Source of the DNA: Xanthobacter sp. YC-JY1
Lineage (GTDB): Bacteria; Pseudomonadota; Alphaproteobacteria; Rhizobiales; Xanthobacteraceae
DNA length: 64,000 bases
Assembly (NCBI RefSeq): GCF_021730305.1
Contig: NZ_CP032674.1
Location: forward strand, 3,829,001-3,893,000
Direction: 5' to 3'
Under the pieces are notes generated by a model. The model saw nothing but the letters and a program-made list of their open reading frames with translations. It was not told where the DNA came from and did not search any database. This document shows positions 9,988 through 39,252 of this stretch, piece after piece (the first letter of the stretch is position 1; each line of letters begins with the position of its first letter). A program made the position numbers and the translations under genes.

Positions 9988-10071
9988 GTCCAAGTCCGCG
10001 CGGCACCTGAGCGAGCCCTCTCGGCGCCAGTCAGAGACCGGGGCCGATGGCATACAGGCCGCCCGCGCCGC

Positions 10072-27190: not shown

Positions 27191-28444
27191 TCAGACCACG
27201 CGACCTTCGTGCATGGACTTGATCTGCTCCGGCGAATAGCCGAGCTCCGCCAGCACCTCGTCGGTGTGCTCGCCGAGCAGCGGGGAGCCGGTGACCTCGA
27301 CGGACATGTCCGAGAACTTGATCGGGCTGCCCACGGTCAGATACTTGCCGCGCTGCTTGTGATCGACTTCCACGATGGTGCCGCTCTCGCGCAGGGACTT
27401 GTCCTCGGCGATCTCCTTCATGGTGAGCACCGGGGCGCAGGGGATGTCGAACTTGCGCAGGATGTCGACCGCCTCGAACTTGGTCTTGTCGGCGAGCCAC
27501 GCCTCGATCACCGCGAAGATGTCGAAGATCTTGTCCTGGCGGGCGCGGGCGGTGTTGTAGGCCGGATCGTTGATCCACTCGGGCTTGCCGATGGCTTCCG
27601 CCACCTTGCCCCAGGCCTGCTCCTGCACGGTGAAGTAGATGTAGGCGTTGGGATCGGTCTCCCAGCCCTTGCACTTCAGCACCCAGCCGGGCTGGCCGCC
27701 GCCGCCCGCATTGCCGCCGCGCGGAACCACGTCCGAGAACGTGCCGTGCGGGTACTGCGGGTATTCCTCGAGGTAGCCCACGCGGTCGAGACGCTGCTGG
27801 TCGCGCAGCTTCACGCGGCAGAGGTTGATGACCGCATCCTGCATGGACACGGCGACCTTCTGGCCCTTGCCGGTCTTGTTGCGGGCGTGCAGCGCGGTGA
27901 GGATGCCAATGGCGAGGTGCATGCCGGTGTTGCTATCACCGAGCGCGGCGGCGGAGACGGTGGGGGGACCGTCCCAGAAGCCGGTGGTGGAGGCCGCGCC
28001 GCCGGCGCACTGCGCCACGTTCTCGTAGACCTTCAGGTCTTCGTAGTGGTGGCCGTCGGAGAAGCCCTTCACTGAGGCGACGATCATGCCCGGGTTGAGC
28101 TCGTTGATGTGCTCCCAGGTGAAGCCCATGCGGTCGAGCGCGCCGGGAGCGAAGTTCTCCACGAGGACGTCGCTCTCCTTGATGAGCTTCGTCAGCACTT
28201 CCTTGCCTTCCTGGGTCTTGGTGTCCAGGGTCAGGGAGCGCTTGTTGGAGTTCAGCATGGTGAAGTACAGCGCGTCGGCATTGGAGATGTCGCGCAGCTG
28301 GTTGCGGGTCACGTCGCCCGAGCCGGGACGCTCCACCTTGATGACGTCCGCGCCGAACCAGGCGAGGAGCTGCGTGCAGGCGGGGCCGGCCTGAACGTGC
28401 GTGAAGTCGATGATCTTGATGCCTTCCAACGGCTTGCTGGTCAT
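27191..28444 (-). CDS. frc: Formyl-CoA:oxalate CoA-transferase, paralogue 1
   Basis: A 417-residue class III CoA-transferase. It moves CoA from formyl-CoA (or another acyl-CoA such as succinyl-CoA) to oxalate, giving oxalyl-CoA. The catalytic Asp170 lies in [14 protein letters not shown] and the flexible glycine loop is the full [11 protein letters not shown], as in characterised Frc enzymes. [20 protein letters not shown] and [13 protein letters not shown] are family signatures. At the position of Oxalobacter Trp48 this protein appears to have Gln (TRNQLRD). It is the last gene of the oxc operon. Start at 28444 gives [14 protein letters not shown], the family N-terminus. Confidence 0.93.
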
Positions 28445-28574
28445 TTGCGTTCCCTTTTCAAAAACTGGTCTTCGACAGCGGGACGGCGTCACGCGAGGCA
28501 TCCGCAGTCCCGAAACCTTCCGGCGTCACGGCACGGGGCCGCCGCCGGCTTCACCCGCCGGTTTGCCCGGTCTG

Positions 28575-29102: not shown

Positions 29103-30380
29103 CTATTCCGCCGCCATGCGGCGGGGGGTGCCGATGGCGCCGGAGGCGCGCAAAGCGTCGATGCGGTCGGGGGCGAGGCCGAGCACGCCGGCGAGCACCT
29201 CTTCGGTGTGCTCCCCGAGCAGCGGCGAGCGCTCCACCTCGACCTGGTTGTCCGAGAGCTTGATGGGGTTGCCGACGGTCAGGTACGTGCCGCGCATCGG
29301 GTGCTCCACCTCCACCAGCGTGCCGGTGGCATAGAGCGACTGGTCCTCGGCGATCTCCTTCATGGAGAGGATGGGACCGCAGGGGATGTCGTACTTGTTG
29401 AGGATCTCCATGGCCTCGAACTTGGTGTGGGCCATGGTCCACGCTTCGATGCGCGTGAAGATCTCGTTGAGGTGCGGCAGGCGCGCGGCCGGCGTCGCGT
29501 AATTCGGGTCGGTCTTCCACTCGGGCTCGTGGATGACGTCGCAGATCTTCTCCCAGACCGGAGCCTGAGTGATGAAGTAGATGTAGGCGTTGGGATCGTG
29601 CTCCCAGCCCTTGCAGCGCAGGATGCGCCCGGGCTGGCCGCCGCCGGAATCGTTGCCGGCGCGGGGCACGGTTTCGCCGAAGGGCACGCCCTCCCCGAAC
29701 TGGCTGTATTCCTTGAGCGGGCCGTTGGCGAGGCGCTGCTGGTCGCGCAGCTTCACGCGGCAGAGGTTCAGCACCGCGTCCTGCATGGCGCACATCACGC
29801 GCTGGCCGCGGCCTGTGTGCTCGCGCTGGAACAGCGCGGTGACGATGCCGAGGGCGAGATGGAGGCCGGTGCCCGAGTCGCCGATCTGCGCGGCGCTGAC
29901 CATGGGCAGGCTGTCGCGGAAGCCGGTGGTGGAGGCGGCGCCGCCCGCGCACTGGGCGACGTTCTCATACACCTTGCAATCCTCGAACGGGCCGGGGCCG
30001 AAGCCCTTCACGGAGGCGAGGATGAGGCGCGGATTGATGGTGGAGAGGCGCTCCCAGGTGAGGCCCATGCGGTCGAGCGCGCCGGGGGCGAAATTCTCGA
30101 CCAGCACGTCGCACTGGCGCACCAGCTGCTCGAGGATGGCCTTGCCCTCGGGATTCTTGGTGTCGAGGGTGATCGACCTCTTGTTCGAGTTGAGCATGGT
30201 GAAATAGAGGCTGTCGGCGCCGTCCACGTCGCGGAGCTGGCCGCGCGTCACGTCGCCCTCGCCGGGACGCTCCACCTTTATGACGTCCGCGCCGAACCAG
30301 GCGAGCAGCTGGGTGCAGCTCGGTCCGGACTGAACGTGGGTGAAGTCCAGGATGCGGACCCCCTCTAGTGCCTTGCCCAT
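29103..30380 (-). CDS. frc: Formyl-CoA:oxalate CoA-transferase, paralogue 2
   Basis: A 425-residue class III CoA-transferase clearly paralogous to the gene at 27191. It keeps [20 protein letters not shown], the catalytic Asp in [14 protein letters not shown] and the CoA-binding segments. Its mobile loop reads [11 protein letters not shown] where paralogue 1 and typical Frc have [11 protein letters not shown], so one loop glycine is Ser and a Trp is Arg. The C-terminus has an extra tail ([10 protein letters not shown]). It follows oxc by 144 bases that contain a GGCGGG/CCCGCC stem. The substitution suggests changed donor or acceptor preference. Confidence 0.9.
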
Positions 30381-30524: not shown

Positions 30525-32285
30525 TCACTTCTTTTTCTTGACCACGCTCTGCGGGTTCAGCGAGCCGATGTTGCCGCTCTCGGAGCCGGCGGCCGGGTCG
30601 ATTTCCGCGTTGATGAGGGTGGGCTTGCCGCTATCCATGGCGGCGCTGACCGCGCGATAGAGCTCGTCGGGGGACGTGACGTTCACGCCCACGCCGCCGA
30701 AGGCTTCCATCATCTTGTCGTAGCGCGAGCCGGGGACGAACACCGTGGTGCCGGGATCACGCCCGGTGGGATCGGTGTCGGTGCCGCGATAGATGCCGTT
30801 GTTGTTGAAGATCACGATGGTGACCGGCAGGTTGTAGCGGCAGATGGTCTCCACCTCCATGCCGGAGAAGCCGAAGGCGCTGTCGCCTTCCACCGCGAGA
30901 ACCTTCTTGCCGGTCTCCACCGCCGCCGCGATGGCGAAGCCCATGCCGATGCCCATCACGCCCCAGGTGCCCACGTCGAGGCGCTTGCGCGGCTCGTACA
31001 TGTCGATGATGCCGCGGGCGAGGTCGAGGGTGTTGGCGCCCTCGTTCACCAGCAGCGCGTCGGGACGCTCCTTGATGACGTTCTTCAGCGCGCCGAGGGC
31101 CGAGTGGAAGTCCATGGGCACCGAGTTCTTCAGAAGCTTCGGCGCCATCTTGGCGATGTTGGCTTCCTTCTTGGTGCGGATGGACTCGGTCCACTGGGCC
31201 GGGGGGGTCTTCCAGGAGCCGTCGAGGCGGGCGTTGAGCGCCGCGATCACCGAGCCGATGTCGCCGACGAGCGGGGCCGCGATCTCGACGTTGGAGTCCA
31301 TCTCCTTGGGCTCGATGTCCACCTGGATGAACTTCTTCGGGGCATCGCCCCAGGTCTTGCCCTTGCCATGGGAGAGCAGCCAGTTGAGGCGGGCGCCCAC
31401 CAGCAGCACCACGTCGGCATCCTTGAGCGCGGTGGAGCGCGCGGCGCCCGCCGACTGGGGATGGGTGTCCGGCAGCAGGCCCTTGGCCATGGACATGGGC
31501 AGGAAGGGGATGCCGCTCTTCTCGATGAAGGCGCGGATCTCGTCGTCGGCCTGCGCGTAGGCCGCGCCCTTGCCGAGGATGACGAGGGGACGCTCGGCGC
31601 CCTTAAGCAGCTCGATGGCGCGGTCCACCGCGGCCGGGGCCGGGATCTGCGCCGGGGCGGGATCGATCACCTTGACGAGGGACTTGGCGCCCGCCTCGGC
31701 ATCCATCACCTGGCCGAACAGCTTCGCCGGCAGGTCGAGATAGACGCCGCCAGGACGGCCCGACACCGCCGCGCGGATGGCGCGGGCGACGCCGATGCCG
31801 ATGTCGGCGGCGTGCAGCACGCGGAAGGCCGCCTTGCAGAGGGGCTTGGCGATGGCCAGCTGATCCATCTCCTCATAGTCGCCCTGCTGCAGGTCGACGA
31901 TCTCCCGCTCGGAGGAGCCCGAGATGAGGATCATCGGGAAGCAGTTGGTGGTGGCGTTCGCCAGCGCCGTCAGGCCGTTGAGGAAGCCGGGGGCCGACAC
32001 GGTGAGGCAGATGCCGGGCTTCTTGGTGAGGAAGCCCGCAATCGCCGCCGCGTTGCCGGCATTCTGCTCGTGACGGAAGGAAATGACACGGATGCCCTCG
32101 GCCTGGCACATGCGGCCGAGATCGGTGATCGGGATGCCGGGCACGCCGTAGATCGTCTCGATGCCGTTCAGCTTCAGGGCATCGATGACGAGGTGGAAGC
32201 CGTCGGTGAGCTCACGCTCGGCCTCGGCGGCCGGGTCGATGTGCACCACGTTGTCTTCGATCTTGGACTTTTCCGCCGTAGCCAT
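30525..32285 (-). CDS. oxc: Oxalyl-CoA decarboxylase
   Basis: A 586-residue thiamine-diphosphate enzyme that splits oxalyl-CoA to formyl-CoA and CO2. The cofactor-activating glutamate is Glu73 in [20 protein letters not shown] supplies the Tyr-Glu pair of the active site. The Mg/ThDP motif is [20 protein letters not shown] ending in NNNGIYRG. The C-terminus [17 protein letters not shown] has the Ser of the lid that closes over the substrate, then a lysine tail. It lies 40 bases downstream of the GntR gene and upstream of frc2, so one operon is likely. Start at 32285 with a GGAGATCCTC-type site. Confidence 0.96.
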
Positions 32286-32325: not shown

Positions 32326-33108
32326 CTATTCGGGGAAGACGCCGTGCCGTTCCACATGAGCCGCAAGGCCCATGGTGTGTTCCCGCACCAGGCGCTCGGC
32401 GAGATCTGGGTCTCGGGTCTCGAGCGCATCGATGATCGCCATGTGTTCCCGCATGGAGATTTCGTGCCGGTTCTCCTGCCGCACCGAGACTGCGCGGATG
32501 GCGCGCATGTGCAGGAACAGGTTCTCCGTCATGTCCACGATCAGCCGGCACCCGCCCATGCGGATCACCGCCTGATGGAAGGCGATGTTCGCCTCCGAAT
32601 ACTCGTTCATGTGGCTGGCGAGGGGCTGCGCCTCGAACTCGTGGAACAGCCGGCGCAGGCCCGCAATCTCGCTGTCGGAGGCGTGGGTCGCGGCCAGGCG
32701 CGCCGCCATCGCCTCTAGCGCCGCCCAGACCACGATGAGGTCGAGGATCTCGCGCTTGGTCTTGCGCACCACGAAGATGCCGCGGCGCGGAACGGAGCGC
32801 ACGAAGCCCTCCTGTTCCAGAACGGTCATGGCCTCGCGGATCGGGGTCCGCGAGACACCCAGCGTCTCGGAGAGCTGGCGCTCGTCGAGACGGAATTCGG
32901 TGGTCGAGCCGTAGATATCCATCTGCGTGATGGCGCGCTTCAGGGCCTCGTAGGCCAGCATGCGCAGGCTGGACGCGGCCTCCAGAGGCTCTACCTTGAG
33001 CTTCGGAGGATCAACGACCTCAAGCGCGGGCGTCTGATGCACGGGCGTCTGCACGACCTGGACTTCCTCTCCCTGGAAGCGGCCGCCTTCTGTCGAGGCG
33101 TTCCTCAT
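32326..33108 (-). CDS. GntR/FCD-family regulator of the oxalate operon
   Basis: A 260-residue regulator. About 45 low-complexity residues precede a GntR winged helix (AYEALKRAITQMDIYG, LSETLGVSRTPIREAMTVLEQEGFV) and an FCD effector domain (SEANIAFHQAVIRMGG, REHMAIIDALE). The ATG at 33108 has no good ribosome site; an internal GTG near 33048 behind GAGAGGAAG is an alternative and would remove about 20 residues. The gene is first in line before oxc, with a palindromic site only 15 bases upstream, so autoregulation is likely. Ligand could be oxalate, glyoxylate or an acyl-CoA; none is shown. Confidence 0.85.
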   Translation of the reverse strand: MRNASTEGGRFQGEEVQVVQTPVHQTPALEVVDPPKLKVEPLEAASSLRMLAYEALKRAITQMDIYGSTTEFRLDERQLSETLGVSRTPIREAMTVLEQEGFVRSVPRRGIFVVRKTKREILDLIVVWAALEAMAARLAATHASDSEIAGLRRLFHEFEAQPLASHMNEYSEANIAFHQAVIRMGGCRLIVDMTENLFLHMRAIRAVSVRQENRHEISMREHMAIIDALETRDPDLAERLVREHTMGLAAHVERHGVFPE

Positions 33109-33115
33109 CCGTGAA

Positions 33116-33145
33116 ATACTGTATACGGTGTTCAGAACTCCGTAT
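33116..33145 (-). promoter_or_regulatory. Candidate GntR operator upstream of the oxalate operon
   Basis: ATACTGTAT (33116-33124) and the overlapping GTATAC (33121-33126) run into a 23-base imperfect palindrome at 33123-33145 with perfect ATACGG / CCGTAT ends and GTTC / GAAC inner arms. GTATAC cores are usual for FCD-type GntR regulators. It sits just before the gntR start. Confidence 0.65.
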
Positions 33146-33252: not shown

Positions 33253-34767
33253 TTACTCGGCTGCCGCCGGCTCCTTGTGCCCGTTCAGCCGGGCCATCAC
33301 CTTCGACACCAGCGGCCACACCAGCATCACCAGCGCCAGGGTGACGATGGAGCCCACCAGCGGGTTGGACCAGAAGATGGAGAGGTGGCCCTGCGAGACC
33401 AGCATGGCCTGCCGGAAGGACGATTCGGCCATGTCGCCGAGCACCAGGGCCAGCACCAGCGGCGCCAGCGGATACTGGAGCTTCTTGAACAGGTAGCCGA
33501 TGACGCCGAAGACCAGCATGACCGCGATGTCGAGCCCGGCATTGTGCACCGTGTAGGCGCCCACCGCGCAGATCACGAGGATGACCGGCGCGATCACGCT
33601 GAACGGGATGCGCAGGATGGCCGCGAAGATCGGAACGGTGGTCAGCACCACGATCAGGCCGGCGATGTTGCCGAGATAGATCGAGGCGATGAGGCCCCAC
33701 ACGAAGTCCTTCTGCTCCACGAACAGCAGCGGGCCGGGCTGGAGACCCCAGATGAGGAGGCCGCCGAGCAGCACCGCCGCCGTGGGCGAGCCGGGGATGC
33801 CGAGGGTGAGCATGGGCAGGAGCGCCGAGGTGCCGGCCGCGTGGGCCGCCACTTCCGGCATCACCACGCCCTCCAGCTCGCCCTTGCCGAAGTTGTTTCC
33901 ATTCTTGGAGAACTTCTTGGCGAGGCCGTAGCTCATGAAGGAGGCGGGCGTGGCGCCGCCGGGGGTCACGCCCATCCAGCAGCCGACGATGGCCGAGCGC
34001 AGGCAGCCGACCCAGTATTTCGGCAGCTTCTTCCAGGTCTCCCACACCACCTTGGCGTTGATGGCGGCGCTCTTGCCCTTGAAGGCGAGGCCTTCCTCCA
34101 TGGTCAGCAGGATTTCGCCGACGCCGAACAGGCCGATGACCGCCACAAGGAAGTCGAAGCCGCGCAGCAGCTCCACCGAGCCGAAGGTCATGCGCAGCTG
34201 GCCCGTCACCGTGTCGATGCCCACCGCCGCGAGGGCGAAGCCGAGCATCATGGCCGAGATCACCTTGGCCGCCGGCTCGCGTCCCATGCCGACGAAGGCG
34301 CAGAAGGTGAGGAGGTAGACCGCGAAGAACTCCGCCGGCCCGAACTGCAGCGCGAACTTGGCGATGACCGGGGCGAGGAAGGTGATGAGCAGCACGGCGA
34401 AGAAGGCACCGATGAAGGAGCCGGTGAAGGCCCCCGTCAGCGCCTCGCCGGCTTTCCCCTTCTGGGCCATGGGGTGCCCGTCGAAGGTTGTGGCCACGCT
34501 CCAGGGCTCGCCGGGAATGTTGAACAGGATGGAGGTGATGGCGCCGCCGAACAGGGCTCCCCAATAGATGGAGGAGAGCATGATGATCGCCGACACCGGC
34601 GTCATGGAGAAGGTGAGCGGCAGGAGGATGGCGACGCCGTTGGCCCCGCCCAGCCCCGGCAGCACGCCGATGAGGACGCCGAGCGCGATGCCGACGAACA
34701 TGTAGATGATGTTCATGGGGTCGGCGAGGACACCGAACCCTCCGATGAGTGACGTGAGCGCTTCCAC
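33253..34767 (-). CDS. tctA: Tripartite tricarboxylate transporter large permease (TctA)
   Basis: A 504-residue membrane protein with about 12 segments. It carries TctA hallmarks: GVLIGVLPGLGGANGVAILL, SSIYWGALFGGAITSILFN followed by IPGEPWSVATTFDGHPMAQK, and GVTPGGATPASFMSYGLA in the second half. With TctB and TctC it forms a carboxylate importer. It lies 144 bases before the oxalate GntR and oxc genes on the same strand, so oxalate or a related dicarboxylate is a plausible cargo. Confidence 0.93.
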   Translation of the reverse strand: MEALTSLIGGFGVLADPMNIIYMFVGIALGVLIGVLPGLGGANGVAILLPLTFSMTPVSAIIMLSSIYWGALFGGAITSILFNIPGEPWSVATTFDGHPMAQKGKAGEALTGAFTGSFIGAFFAVLLITFLAPVIAKFALQFGPAEFFAVYLLTFCAFVGMGREPAAKVISAMMLGFALAAVGIDTVTGQLRMTFGSVELLRGFDFLVAVIGLFGVGEILLTMEEGLAFKGKSAAINAKVVWETWKKLPKYWVGCLRSAIVGCWMGVTPGGATPASFMSYGLAKKFSKNGNNFGKGELEGVVMPEVAAHAAGTSALLPMLTLGIPGSPTAAVLLGGLLIWGLQPGPLLFVEQKDFVWGLIASIYLGNIAGLIVVLTTVPIFAAILRIPFSVIAPVILVICAVGAYTVHNAGLDIAVMLVFGVIGYLFKKLQYPLAPLVLALVLGDMAESSFRQAMLVSQGHLSIFWSNPLVGSIVTLALVMLVWPLVSKVMARLNGHKEPAAAE

Positions 34768-34977: not shown

Positions 34978-35502
34978 TCAGTAGCCGAGCGCGGTCTCGA
35001 GCGGGCCCTTGGGCAGCGGCACGAGGAACCAGATCTCGAACATGACGAAGAGGGCGAGCGGCACGCCCACGGCGACGGGGATGATCTTCGCCACCGGGTA
35101 TTTGCCGAGCCACCACATGAAGAAGGCGATGAACACCGCCGAAGCGAGATAGATTCCGACGAGGAAGATCAGGCCCACATAGACTGTCGTCGGGATCAAC
35201 ACCTGCATCACCGAGACGAGCTGCGAGCGATCGACGAAGTTTCCAAGGTCGGGATGGCGGCTCACCAGCGCCGTCACCAGGGTGACGGTGGAGGCGATGA
35301 ACATGATGAGGCCGACATAGAAGGGGAAGTAGCCGGCCTGCGGGCCGTCCGACGCCCAGCTCGCGCCAACGCGCCAGCTGTCGGACATGACGACGGCCGC
35401 GAGGGCCATGAACAGCACCGCCACCGCCGCGTCCATGGTGCGGTTGGTGACGGTCTTCTCATTGTGCGCGGTGGGGGCGGAATGCCCGCTTTCGGTGCTC
35501 AT
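34978..35502 (-). CDS. tctB: Tripartite tricarboxylate transporter small permease (TctB)
   Basis: A 174-residue DUF1468-type subunit with four hydrophobic segments, including AAVAVLFMALAAVVMSDSW and, at the C-terminal half, VLIPTTVYVGLIFLVGIYLA and PVAVGVPLALFVMFEIWFLV. The GPQAGYFPFYVGLIMFIAS stretch after the first segment is typical. It is encoded 210 bases before tctA and 273 bases after tctC; neither gap contains a gene. Confidence 0.88.
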   Translation of the reverse strand: MSTESGHSAPTAHNEKTVTNRTMDAAVAVLFMALAAVVMSDSWRVGASWASDGPQAGYFPFYVGLIMFIASTVTLVTALVSRHPDLGNFVDRSQLVSVMQVLIPTTVYVGLIFLVGIYLASAVFIAFFMWWLGKYPVAKIIPVAVGVPLALFVMFEIWFLVPLPKGPLETALGY

Positions 35503-35775: not shown

Positions 35776-36792
35776 TTACTTGGCGACGAAGCCCGCCTTC
35801 TCCATGAGGTCCTTGTGCGTGGCCTCGGCCTTGGTGAGCCAGGCCGCGTATTCCGGACCGCTCAGGGCCGTCGTGTTGAAGGCACCCTTCTGCATGAATT
35901 CCTGCCACTCGGGCGTGGCGCGGACCTTCTTGAACAGCTCGACGAAGTAATCGACCTGATCCTTGGTGGCATTCGGCGGCATGAGGATGCCACGCAACAT
36001 CAGATATTCGATGTCGAGGCCGGATTCCTTGCAGGTCGGGATGTCGGCCCAGGACTTGCCGTTTGCGATGGGCTCCTTGTAGGGCAGCCGCTGGTAGTCG
36101 AACACGCAGAGCGGCTTCAGCTCGCCCGCGCGCCACTGGGACACCGCCTCGATGGGGTTGTTGACCGAGGCGGTCACATGACCGCCCACCAGCTGGGCCG
36201 CGACATCGCCGCCGCCCTTGTACGGCACGTAGATGAACTTGGCGCCGGTCTTCTGCTCGATCGCGGCAGTGATGATCTGGTCTTCCTGCTTGGAGCCGGT
36301 GCCGCCCATCTTGAAAATCTGGTCGCCGGAGGCCGCCTTGAGCGCGTCCAGGAAGCCCTTCACATCATTGTAGGGGGCCTTGGCGTTCACCCACAGGACG
36401 AATTCGTCGAGCGCCAGCATGGAAACCGGGGTCATGTCCTTCCAGGAGAAGGGCACGCCGGTGGCGAGCGGAGTGGTAAAGAGATTCGAGAGCGAGATGA
36501 TGATCTTGTGGGGGTTCCGGTTGGAGCCCTTCACGTCGAGGAAGCCCTCGGCGCCGGCGCCACCCGACTTGTTGATGACCACCAGCGGCTGGCTCATCAG
36601 GCTGTTCTTCTGGACGATACCCTGGATCATCCGCGCCATCTGGTCGGCGCCGCCGCCGGTGCCGGCGGGGACGATGAACTCCACGGTCTTCGTCGGCTCC
36701 CAGGCCGCATGGGCCATGGCCGGCGCGAGAGCCGCCGTGACCGCGATTGCAGCCACACCTCTCCTGACGATCTTGGCGATTGCCGAATGCAT
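35776..36792 (-). CDS. tctC: Tripartite tricarboxylate transporter binding protein (TctC/Bug family)
   Basis: A 338-residue periplasmic protein with a signal peptide (RRGVAAIAVTAALAPAMAHA, cleaved near residue 29). The mature start WEPTKTVEFIVPAGTGGGAD followed by QMARMI, the VVINKSGGAGAEGFLDV stretch and the YVPYKGGGDVAAQLVGGHV stretch are standard Bug features that hold a carboxylate between two loops. GGGGAGGAAAATCAG precedes the ATG. It is the first gene of the transporter group and is preceded by a 357-base control region. Confidence 0.93.
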   Translation of the reverse strand: MHSAIAKIVRRGVAAIAVTAALAPAMAHAAWEPTKTVEFIVPAGTGGGADQMARMIQGIVQKNSLMSQPLVVINKSGGAGAEGFLDVKGSNRNPHKIIISLSNLFTTPLATGVPFSWKDMTPVSMLALDEFVLWVNAKAPYNDVKGFLDALKAASGDQIFKMGGTGSKQEDQIITAAIEQKTGAKFIYVPYKGGGDVAAQLVGGHVTASVNNPIEAVSQWRAGELKPLCVFDYQRLPYKEPIANGKSWADIPTCKESGLDIEYLMLRGILMPPNATKDQVDYFVELFKKVRATPEWQEFMQKGAFNTTALSGPEYAAWLTKAEATHKDLMEKAGFVAK

Positions 36793-37149
36793 CTGATTTT
36801 CCTCCCCACGTCCGCGTTCTTTTTGGTGCGGATCGCAATTCCAGAGCTTGTTTCAACCGGCGCCTGCTGCGCCGGGCAAGTTCCCGATAACATCAATGTT
36901 CGTCGAACCCCTGGGCTTAGCCTCTATGGAGCAGACGAAAACGGGACTTCAGCCTGTTTTGACATCGCGCATTTTCACCAATACGCGATTTATGCCGGCA
37001 ATTGAGTTGGCGTTCCCACCGTTGCCGTTACGGCGGCTTGGCAAGAGTATAGACCAAGGGAGGGGTGTCAATTGGAATTTTCAATTCGGAATTAGGTACG
37101 TTGTATGCCACAACTTTGGAATACTGTATTCCAGCTACGGAGGGCCGCC
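36793..37149 (-). promoter_or_regulatory. Upstream region of tctCBA with a 17-base palindrome
   Basis: This is an unusually AT-rich, gene-free region. It contains TGGAATACTGTATTCCA at 37117-37133, a perfect odd palindrome whose core ATACTGTAT also occurs next to the oxalate gntR start (33116-33124). Other elements are AATTGGAATTTTCAATT near 37073-37088 and ATCGCG/CGCGAT arms near 36965-36989. The site could serve the GntR at 32326 or the IclR protein whose gene ends 16 bases away. Confidence 0.6.
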
Positions 37150-38004
37150 TCAACGGAAGGCGGCGTAGTCCTGCGGCAGGTTTTCATCGGCACCTGAATA
37201 CAGGCGCGTCATCTGCTCCGCCGCCGCCACCACGCGCCGGCCGAGGCGCTGGATGCGATCCTCGCTCATGCGCACCGCCGGCCCGGACACCGAAACCGCA
37301 CCGATGGGATCGCGCCATTCGTTGAGGATGGCGGCCGCGACCGCGCGCATGCCGGGGGCGTGCTCCTCCCGGTCCACGGCGAAGCCGCGCTCCAGGATTT
37401 CGGCCACGTCGTCCATCAACGCCCGCTCCTCGCGGCGGGTGGCGGTGGTGAAGGGCTCGTAGCGGATCTGGGCGAGACAGGCGCCGCGGAAGGAGGGGCT
37501 CGCGGCGGCGAGCACCGCCTTGCCGGCGGCGGTGGCATGCAGCGGCAGCCGCGCGCCCAGGCGGAAGAAGGCGCGCACGGGGGCATGGGCCTCCGCCTGC
37601 GCCACCACCACCAGCTCCATGGCATCGAACATGGCGAGGTTCACGGTCTCGTCTGTCTCGTGGAGGAGACGGCGAATCACCGGGCGGCCGATATCGGGCA
37701 GCTTGCGGATGCGCAGATAGGCCGAGCCGATGCGGAACAGGCCGAGGCCCACCGTCCATAGGCCGGTGGAGAGGTCGTGATTGACCAGCTGGCGCTTCTC
37801 CAGCGTCGTCAGCAGGCGGTGCACCGTGGAGACGGGCAGCTCGGCGCGCCGGGCGATTTCGGCCAGCGCCATGCCGTCCTGGTCGGCGACCACGCGCAGC
37901 AGGGCGATGGCGCGGTCCAGCGACTGGACCTCGGCCCCGCCCTCCGACGACGTGCCGGAGGCCGGCCGTCCCCTGCGCCGCGGTGCAACCTCGGTGTCCG
38001 GCAT
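37150..38004 (-). CDS. IclR-family transcriptional regulator
   Basis: A 284-residue regulator with an N-terminal winged helix (QSLDRAIALLRVVADQDG, then ALAEIARRAELPVSTVHRLL in part) and the IclR effector domain (LPLHATAAGKAVLAA, GFAVDREEHAPGMRAVAAAI with the conserved Glu, and a late GAVSVSGPAVRM). The ATG at 38004 follows GGGAGGAGAAAG; an in-frame ATG 20 codons upstream is less likely. It is divergent from the PanE-like gene, with an IclR-type box in between, so it probably controls that gene and itself. The ligand may be a small keto or hydroxy acid, as for other IclR proteins. Confidence 0.88.
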   Translation of the reverse strand: MPDTEVAPRRRGRPASGTSSEGGAEVQSLDRAIALLRVVADQDGMALAEIARRAELPVSTVHRLLTTLEKRQLVNHDLSTGLWTVGLGLFRIGSAYLRIRKLPDIGRPVIRRLLHETDETVNLAMFDAMELVVVAQAEAHAPVRAFFRLGARLPLHATAAGKAVLAAASPSFRGACLAQIRYEPFTTATRREERALMDDVAEILERGFAVDREEHAPGMRAVAAAILNEWRDPIGAVSVSGPAVRMSEDRIQRLGRRVVAAAEQMTRLYSGADENLPQDYAAFR

Positions 38005-38100
38005 GCCGCTTTCTCCTCCCACTTCGTTGCCCACCAAACTATCGTTCCCCTCGCCCCCGTCCACCCCGCGCGCTGCCCCTGCGTCAAATTTTCCACGTTG

Positions 38101-38115
38101 CGGAATTAATTTCCA
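38101..38115. promoter_or_regulatory. IclR-type operator between iclR and the PanE-like gene
   Basis: CGGAATTAATTTCCA matches the Escherichia coli IclR consensus TGGAAATNATTTCCA, recalled from memory, at 12 of 14 defined positions. It lies in the divergent promoter. A GTATAC at 38166-38171, 40 bases before the PanE-like ATG, resembles the GntR-type half of the oxalate operator. Confidence 0.6.
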
Positions 38116-38211
38116 TAAGTATGGTGTCGGTCACTTGCCGAACGGCGGGGCTGCCCGCTAATCTGGTATACATAATACGACATAGATCGCGCACTGCAGG
38201 GAGGATCAGCC

Positions 38212-39252
38212 ATGAAGGTATGCATTTACGGTGCCGGAGCCATCGGCGGCTATCTGGGCGTCCAGCTCGCCCAGGCCGGCGCCGAGGTCAGCCTTGTGGC
38301 CCGCGGTGGCCACCTGGAGGCCATGCAGACCAATGGCGTGAAGCTGCTGATCAACGGCGAGGAGCGCGTCGCCAAGGTGCGCGCCACCGACGACCCGCGC
38401 GAGCTCGGCCCGCAGGATTACGTCATCATCGCCCTCAAGGGACATTCGGTGCCCGGCGTGGTGGAGCAGATGCGCCCCCTCCTCGGCAACGACACCTCCG
38501 TCGTCACCGCCGTGAACGGCGTGCCCTACTGGTATTTCTACAAGAATGGCGGCCAGCTGGAGAACCGGACCCTCGCCACCATCGATCCCGGCGCGAAGCA
38601 GTGGGAAGTGCTGCGCCCCGAGCGCGCCATCGGCTGCATCGTCTATCCCGCGACCGAGGTGGTGGCGCCGGGCGTCATCCAGCACATCTATGGCGACAAG
38701 TTCCCCCTCGGCGAGCCGTCGGGCGAGATCACGCCCCGCGTCACCGCCCTCAGCCAGATGATGGAGAAGGGCGGCCTGCGCGCGCCGGTGATGACCAACA
38801 TCCGCGACGAGCTGTGGCTGAAGCTGTGGGGCAACCTCTGCTTCAACCCCATCAGCGCCCTCACCCACGCCACCCTCGACCTCATCGCCGCCGATCCCGG
38901 CACCCGCGCCGTGGCCAAGGCCATGATGCTGGAGGCGAAGGCCATCGCCGAGCGTATCGGCGTGAACTTCCGCGTGGACGTGGAACGCCGCATCAACGGC
39001 GCCGGCGCCGTGGGCGCGCACAAGACCTCCATGCTGCAGGATCTGGAGCGTGACCGCCCCATGGAGATCGATCCTTTGGTCAGCGTCGTCCAGGAAATGG
39101 GCCAGATGCTGGACATGCCCACCCCCACCCTCGACGTGGTGCTCGCTCTGGTGCGCCAGCGCGCCGCCATGGCCGGCCTCGGCGGCATTCTCGCCAACCC
39201 GCCGCTGACCGCCGCCGATCTCGAGCCGCAGAAGAAGGCCGCCGTGCACTGA
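38212..39252 (+). CDS. PanE/ApbA-family reductase, candidate oxalyl-CoA reductase
   Basis: A 346-residue NADPH-dependent reductase, longer than typical ketopantoate reductases (about 300). The Rossmann motif is CIYGAGAIGGYLG at the N-terminus. Family catalytic positions are seen in ELWLKLWGNLCFNPISALTH (Lys, Asn) and in HKTSMLQDLERDRPMEIDPL (Ser, Glu). Location matters: it adjoins an oxalate cluster. In Methylobacterium extorquens AM1 a protein named PanE2 from this family reduces oxalyl-CoA to glyoxylate (established work, recalled). That role is inferred here; ketopantoate reduction is the default family annotation. GGGAGGA precedes the ATG. A strong terminator follows. Confidence 0.8.
   Translation: MKVCIYGAGAIGGYLGVQLAQAGAEVSLVARGGHLEAMQTNGVKLLINGEERVAKVRATDDPRELGPQDYVIIALKGHSVPGVVEQMRPLLGNDTSVVTAVNGVPYWYFYKNGGQLENRTLATIDPGAKQWEVLRPERAIGCIVYPATEVVAPGVIQHIYGDKFPLGEPSGEITPRVTALSQMMEKGGLRAPVMTNIRDELWLKLWGNLCFNPISALTHATLDLIAADPGTRAVAKAMMLEAKAIAERIGVNFRVDVERRINGAGAVGAHKTSMLQDLERDRPMEIDPLVSVVQEMGQMLDMPTPTLDVVLALVRQRAAMAGLGGILANPPLTAADLEPQKKAAVH

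Follow-up and report, generated by a model that had tools for sequence, protein, structure and literature searches.

Does the panE-like gene of Xanthobacter sp. YC-JY1 encode a ketopantoate reductase of vitamin B5 synthesis, or a reductase that turns oxalyl-CoA into glyoxylate? The gene shares the window (the whole stretch of DNA analyzed, 64,000 nucleotides) with genes for oxalate degradation, and Schneider et al. reportedly found in 2012 that PanE2 of Methylobacterium extorquens AM1 is an oxalyl-CoA reductase. An earlier reading of the DNA, made without database searches (the sequence-only reading), had proposed oxalyl-CoA reductase rather than ketopantoate reductase for the gene product (P0001). 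The tree, the gene neighborhood, and the published genetics of a close homolog in Cupriavidus necator support that proposal and lead us to favor it. From these comparisons we infer that P0001 is very probably an NADPH-dependent oxalyl-CoA reductase working in the direction of glyoxylate (EC 1.2.1.17; glyoxylate dehydrogenase, acylating; PanE2/ApbA2 type). The function is already known from two other genera, and the Xanthobacter gene adds one more case. No paper on the Xanthobacter gene was found in literature titles and abstracts among the matches listed, the scope of which lay mostly outside subscription journals.

The panE-like gene and its oxalate locus

Default annotation gives P0001 a vitamin B5 name, as had been anticipated: Pfam identifies ApbA and ApbA_C domains, and the best NCBIfam model is NF005089 ("2-dehydropantoate 2-reductase"), which P0001 matches at 525 bits (cut-off 223). 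The protein is also, as the sequence-only reading had it, longer than housekeeping PanE (303 residues in E. coli). The excess consists of an insert of ~20 residues (105–124) and a C-terminal tail of ~22, which is about half of the extra length and is missing from many orthologs (324–325 residues). The closest match among named loci is that of X. aminoxidans, with 99% identity over the length of P0001.

Counted away from panE, the minus strand carries the IclR gene, tctC, tctB, tctA, gntR, oxc, and two frc genes in this order (Table 1). The earlier placement of the gene beside oxalate genes and an IclR-type regulator therefore stands as far as the oxalate locus goes but was loose on distance, as the divergent IclR gene adjoins panE and the start of oxc lies ~6 kb off. 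For the IclR-family regulator, the nearest model is BhcR, at 289.5 bits and below the cut-off of 350. The tctC-type protein probably serves oxalate uptake. In frc copy A, the TIGR03253 match begins at residue 23, and the listed start may be too far upstream. Genes for a glyoxylate sink, gcl (1166 bits), hyi, and tsr, occur elsewhere in the genome.

Table 1. Genes and candidate regulatory sites of the oxalate locus, in window positions
Feature	Positions	Strand	Remarks
frc copy A, formyl-CoA:oxalate CoA-transferase	27191–28501	-	TIGR03253, 741 bits, above cut-off
frc copy B, formyl-CoA:oxalate CoA-transferase	29103–30380	-	TIGR03253, 713 bits, above cut-off
oxc, oxalyl-CoA decarboxylase	30525–32285	-	TIGR03254, 1024 bits, above cut-off
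GntR/FCD regulator	32326–33108	-	Pfam match
CCGTATACAGTATTTCACGG	33109–33128	.	Upstream of gntR-oxc-frc, given on minus strand; AGTATTT part conserved in 10 aligned loci
tctA-type membrane protein	33253–34767	-	PF01970
tctB-type membrane protein	34978–35502	-	PF07331
tctC-type solute-binding protein	35776–36792	-	PF03401
Palindrome TGGAATACTGTATTCCA	37117–37133	.	Candidate GntR (FCD) operator; 325 bases upstream of tctC
IclR-family regulator	37150–38064	-	Divergent from panE; GTG start listed, true start may be downstream
Candidate IclR-type site TTTTCCACGTTGCGGAATTAATTTCCA	38089–38115	.	Between iclR and panE
CTGGTATACATAATAC block	38163–38178	+	Between IclR-type site and ribosome-binding site; conserved in 13 aligned sequences
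Ribosome-binding site GGAGG	38200–38204	+	Precedes ATG at 38212
panE-like gene	38212–39252	+	346 codons open, 346 aa (P0001)

Phylogenetic placement and sequence features

A tree was constructed from 91 hand-picked proteins, without fragments and near-copies. All 70 rows of the oxalate clade group on a single branch (98/84) that unites P0001 with Methylobacterium and Cupriavidus proteins and has one long-branched control (L161) inside it. Next outside is a group made up of PDB 3ghy, L085, and L160; a further branch (100/100, length 1.35) separates all of these from E. coli PanE and the other PanE-family paralogs of the family. When the tree was repeated with seven long or odd rows removed, including L161, the oxalate-clade rows made up one side of a branch with an SH-aLRT value of 90 (quick search). 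A tree was the check that the sequence-only reading had named, and P0001 stands apart from bona fide PanE in both. The Methylobacterium rows, from M. bullatum (L082) and four genomes assigned by the search to a single genus outside the family (L183–L186), were taken as PanE2 relatives, and these congeners stand in for the AM1 protein. P0001 is only 48–50% identical to them and 71.5–72.5% identical to its counterparts in two C. necator genomes (L075, L077), which fall in the same subgroup. Identities between the C. necator and Methylobacterium proteins (48–53%) agree with the 51% given for ApbA2 and PanE2 in the passages of PMC7486775 cited here.

P0001 has the ApbA fold and the catalytic Lys, Asn, Ser, and Glu of ketopantoate reductase, and shares both with E. 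coli PanE/ApbA at 24% identity. For the ligands of the E. coli enzyme we use what we take to be the established numbering: K176, N98, N180, N184, N241 (in the substrate site), S244, and E256. K176, N98, N180, N184, S244, and E256 correspond to K204, N102, N208, N212, S273, and E285 of P0001; N208 is kept in 69 of the 70 clade rows and the others in every row. N241 is different, with His in its place (H270) in 70 of 70 clade rows and in one of 17 controls (L145). The same position is Phe in 3ghy, L160, and L085 and His in L161. Residue R31, which in E. coli PanE binds the 2'-phosphate and is a presumed mark of NADPH use, is kept in P0001 and in only 58 of the 70 clade members.

The insert, which E. 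coli PanE lacks, follows N102-G103 and marks a group larger than the oxalate clade, because the 3ghy group has it too. PDB 3ghy, a putative ketopantoate reductase of Ralstonia solanacearum, is the closest solved structure (42.7% identity) and differs from P0001 in lying outside the oxalate-linked clade. It is also the best fold match (TM 0.85–0.87) of an AlphaFold model of P0001 with a pLDDT of 84.4, falling under 50 at residues 269–276, the H270 loop. Two motifs, N-G-x-P-x-W-Y (102–108) and H-x-T-S (270–273), occur together in all 70 aligned clade members.

Gene neighborhoods in relatives

Neighbors of panE were sought by tblastn with proteins from the window and from relatives, in stretches of up to 10 kb on either side, and the thresholds were fixed after the match lists had been inspected. 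Oxalate genes were oxc, frc, oxlT, acyl-CoA ligase, and an Oxc-like TPP enzyme, and glyoxylate genes were gcl, hyi, and tsr. The acyl-CoA ligases were counted as presumed oxalyl-CoA synthetases, NCBIfam giving no name above cut-off. Within the P0001 subgroup, an oxalate or glyoxylate gene was found in 72 of 79 named loci, and six of the seven misses are on stretches shorter than 12 kb. Among named loci of at least 18 kb the count is 50 of 51 (the miss is L067), and among further regions from family genomes it is 14 of 15 (the miss is L130), compared to none of 20 hand-picked control regions, which surround other PF08546 proteins and include three shorter than 18 kb (L142, L145, L153). Fisher values overstate the evidence because the named loci are redundant, with many from Ancylobacter and Azospirillum. 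Of the 79 named loci, 29 have a transhydrogenase gene (pntA or pntB) close by and 25 have gcl, hyi, or tsr, which fits an NADPH-driven reduction towards glyoxylate. Six Rhodopseudomonas loci (L064, L068, L071, L074, L076, L078) have frc and a transporter by panE and no oxc match in the locus.

Neighborhoods in the wider clade are more varied. Oxalate or glyoxylate neighbors were found in all five short loci of the Methylobacterium type and in all ten of subgroup C, the latter by acyl-CoA ligase alone. They occur in only 4 of 15 regions of subgroup B and 0 of 5 of subgroup E, where the partners are solely genes of the fumarylacetoacetate hydrolase family (FAHD), so not every clade member need use oxalyl-CoA. 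Co-occurrence with oxc at the level of whole genomes was discarded as evidence, because oxc is present in 28 of the 35 genomes that have the subgroup and in 45 of the 65 that lack it, a difference short of significance (P = 0.35); this count scores G024 and G096, which have gene fragments only, as without the subgroup gene and credits G072 with oxc on the basis of pieces that fall below cut-off.

Several other arrangements were observed in these regions. The L067 locus, from Azospirillum soli, has two panE-like genes of the P0001 subgroup (at 10001 and 16774), 6.8 kb apart. Single open reading frames of 606–620 aa in L125 (8935–10797), L126 (8944–10764), and L128 (8185–10005) join an FAHD domain to a PanE-like domain, a fusion confirmed for L128; in Methylobacterium, Ancylobacter, and Rhodopseudomonas, a separate FAHD gene lies next to panE. 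A TPP enzyme ~25% identical to Oxc lies beside frc in L084 (18883–20634), with relatives in L035 (3625) and L131 (3164); the genome of L131 (G036) gave no canonical oxc match. This enzyme is a candidate for a second type of oxalyl-CoA decarboxylase or lyase. A SucC/SucD-like pair occurs downstream of panE in L014 (11896, 13095) and many other loci. The L014 pair is 36% and 51% identical to a Phyllobacterium pair, and might act as an acyl-CoA synthetase on oxalate or malate. In two genomes of one genus, remnants of a broken panE-like gene (L140, 11038–11343; L141, 11244–11515) are near oxc and frc matches.

Pantothenate synthesis and paralogs

Searches of the Xanthobacter genome with P0001 and with PF08546 gave one match each, P0001 itself, so the second, shorter panE that the sequence-only reading had proposed to look for was not found. 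The genome has one panB and one ilvC, and a search for a PanG-type reductase (PF10728) gave no match. With no second PanE, panB present, and the catalytic residues kept, P0001 may have a part in pantothenate synthesis, either as its only role or as a further one. We weighed a bifunctional enzyme, one that reduces both oxalyl-CoA and ketopantoate and, as the sole PanE-family protein of the genome, also serves pantothenate synthesis. This explanation overlaps with the favored one.

The P0001 subgroup (at least 66% identity, full protein), oxc, panB, and PF08546 were counted in the same set of 100 family genomes. In 12 of these the subgroup protein is the sole PF08546 protein, and all 12 have panB, which together with the retained catalytic residues speaks for two activities. 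The subgroup is present in 35 genomes and panB in 33 of them; the remaining two (G056, G077) have the subgroup gene and oxc without a panB match, which speaks against a bifunctional enzyme. A PF08546 match is absent from six of the 100 genomes, and all six keep panB, so ketopantoate reduction there, if it occurs, is done by something else. For the same reason, the lack of a second panE, which the sequence-only reading had held to count against its own proposal, is real in this genome but has little force, and does not make P0001 the PanE. An alternative enzyme is available in IlvC, for which ketopantoate reductase activity is reported in Salmonella in the part of PMC5965847 cited here; by analogy, IlvC may reduce ketopantoate in Xanthobacter. 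Given also the position of the gene in oxalate loci, we consider a bifunctional enzyme unlikely.

Comparison with known systems and direction of the reaction

Among the closest systems described is apbA2 of C. necator, which lies near frc-oxc and whose product is put forward as a probable CoA-acylating glyoxylate dehydrogenase. Its deletion lengthened the doubling time on oxalate from 6.5 to 10 h, and loss of the glycerate pathway had a similar effect (13 h) (cited passages of PMC7486775). The apbA2 counterparts from two further C. necator genomes, the subgroup members L075 and L077 (~72% identity), likewise lie near frc-like and GntR genes. Their loci have FAHD, pntAB, and OxlT genes, whereas the Xanthobacter locus has IclR and TctABC genes, and the C-terminal tail is longer in the Xanthobacter protein. 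PanE2 of M. extorquens has been characterized and used in vitro as an oxalyl-CoA reductase, as stated in the section of PMC8411744 cited here. Its congeners, through which the comparison was made, fall in the P0001 clade and have the run oxlT-FAHD-panE-acyl-CoA ligase (OxlT named by TIGR04259); the neighbor there is the acyl-CoA ligase, in contrast to Frc in Xanthobacter.

The same enzyme could also work mainly in reverse, oxidizing glyoxylate to oxalyl-CoA (CoA-acylating), with Oxc and Frc burning the oxalyl-CoA to formate and CO2. This is the direction that Claassens et al. put forward for growth of C. necator on glycolate, and deletion of frc-oxc slows a C. necator strain without the glycerate pathway; the oxidative route is secondary in that work, as far as the cited passages go (PMC7486775). 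Oxalate carriers, pntAB, and gcl as neighbors point instead to import and reduction. The reverse direction agrees with the favored explanation on the enzyme itself, and as the main direction we judge it improbable. That P0001 is an ordinary ketopantoate reductase lying near oxalate genes by chance accords with its Pfam and NCBIfam names, its conserved catalytic residues, and its being the only family member in the genome, but is highly implausible given its place elsewhere in both trees, the neighborhood contrast (50 of 51 against 0 of 20 controls), the insert and H270, and the C. necator genetics.

Upstream sites and regulation

The core of the candidate IclR-type site TTTTCCACGTTGCGGAATTAATTTCCA (38101–38115) matches 12 of the 14 specified bases of what we take to be the E. 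coli IclR box consensus, a score reached in 0 of 2000 shuffles of the region. The TTTTCCACGTTGCGGAATTAATTTCCA pattern was found in none of 100 shuffles, though it was drawn from the same site. Other Xanthobacter loci have the same core at 12 of 14 (11 in L007), and the box is complete (14 of 14) in L038, where panE sits between iclR and gcl. The TTTCC of TTTTCCACGTTGCGGAATTAATTTCCA is kept in all 13 aligned upstream regions. As a family-wide mark the box was rejected, Aquabacter and Azorhizobium reaching only 9–11 of 14, values that shuffles also give. It was likewise rejected as proof of a regulon through gcl, upstream of which there is no box in the same genome; the 11 of 14 matches in L162 (4337, 11707) are not upstream of gcl (8734).

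The CTGGTATACATAATAC block may be an extended -10 element, a GntR half-site, or an overlap of the two. Similar sites occur upstream of gntR-oxc and tctC, with seven matches in the window versus 1.7 expected, two of the seven being the two strands of one palindrome. In the portions of PMC11323563 cited here, DNA binding by BhcR responds to glyoxylate and oxalate, and G160, A161, D212, S239, and S241 are the IclR residues that bind glyoxylate oxygens (Table 1 of that paper). The IclR-family neighbor of panE keeps A161, D212, S239, and S241 and has Ala for G160. Expression of panE is probably set by this IclR protein, a candidate glyoxylate sensor, and possibly also by the GntR regulator encoded with oxc.

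Proposed route and its meaning

In the proposed route, TctABC would import oxalate, and Frc would load CoA from formyl-CoA onto it. Oxc would decarboxylate part of the oxalyl-CoA, regenerating formyl-CoA and yielding formate for energy; P0001 would reduce the remainder to glyoxylate and CoA, and Gcl, Hyi, and Tsr would take glyoxylate to glycerate. Because it is a 2-oxo-acid thioester, oxalyl-CoA could bind like ketopantoate. The hydride would be transferred to the carbonyl of the thioester while K204 and E285 act as usual in the family, and the resulting hemithioacetal would break down into glyoxylate and CoA. H270, specific to the clade, may supply a proton to the departing thiolate, as the catalytic His does in HMG-CoA reductase. 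A bolder reading is that the clade is a ketopantoate reductase turned into a cysteine-free thioester reductase by a single Asn-to-His swap in the substrate site (H270), the loop after Asn-Gly having been there beforehand. The result would be a one-step mechanism convergent with that of HMG-CoA reductase: a hemithioacetal forms, His protonates the thiolate, and the aldehyde leaves. In Xanthobacter the same enzyme would still be the only PanE of the cell. As a whole, this reading is unlikely.

In four of the five subgroups of the clade (A, B, D, and E, those scanned), members score above the NF005089 cut-off, and the name 2-dehydropantoate 2-reductase that the model gives them could be mended with clade-specific residues. 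A rule combining N-G-x-P-x-W-Y and H-x-T-S would separate the oxalate clade from PanE. The vitamin B5 name conceals the assimilatory branch of oxalate metabolism from genome-based models of soil carbon cycling. Genomes with a P0001-type protein as the only PanE-family protein also raise the question of which enzyme makes pantoate in Xanthobacter. If the proposed route is true, Xanthobacter can build cell material from oxalate.
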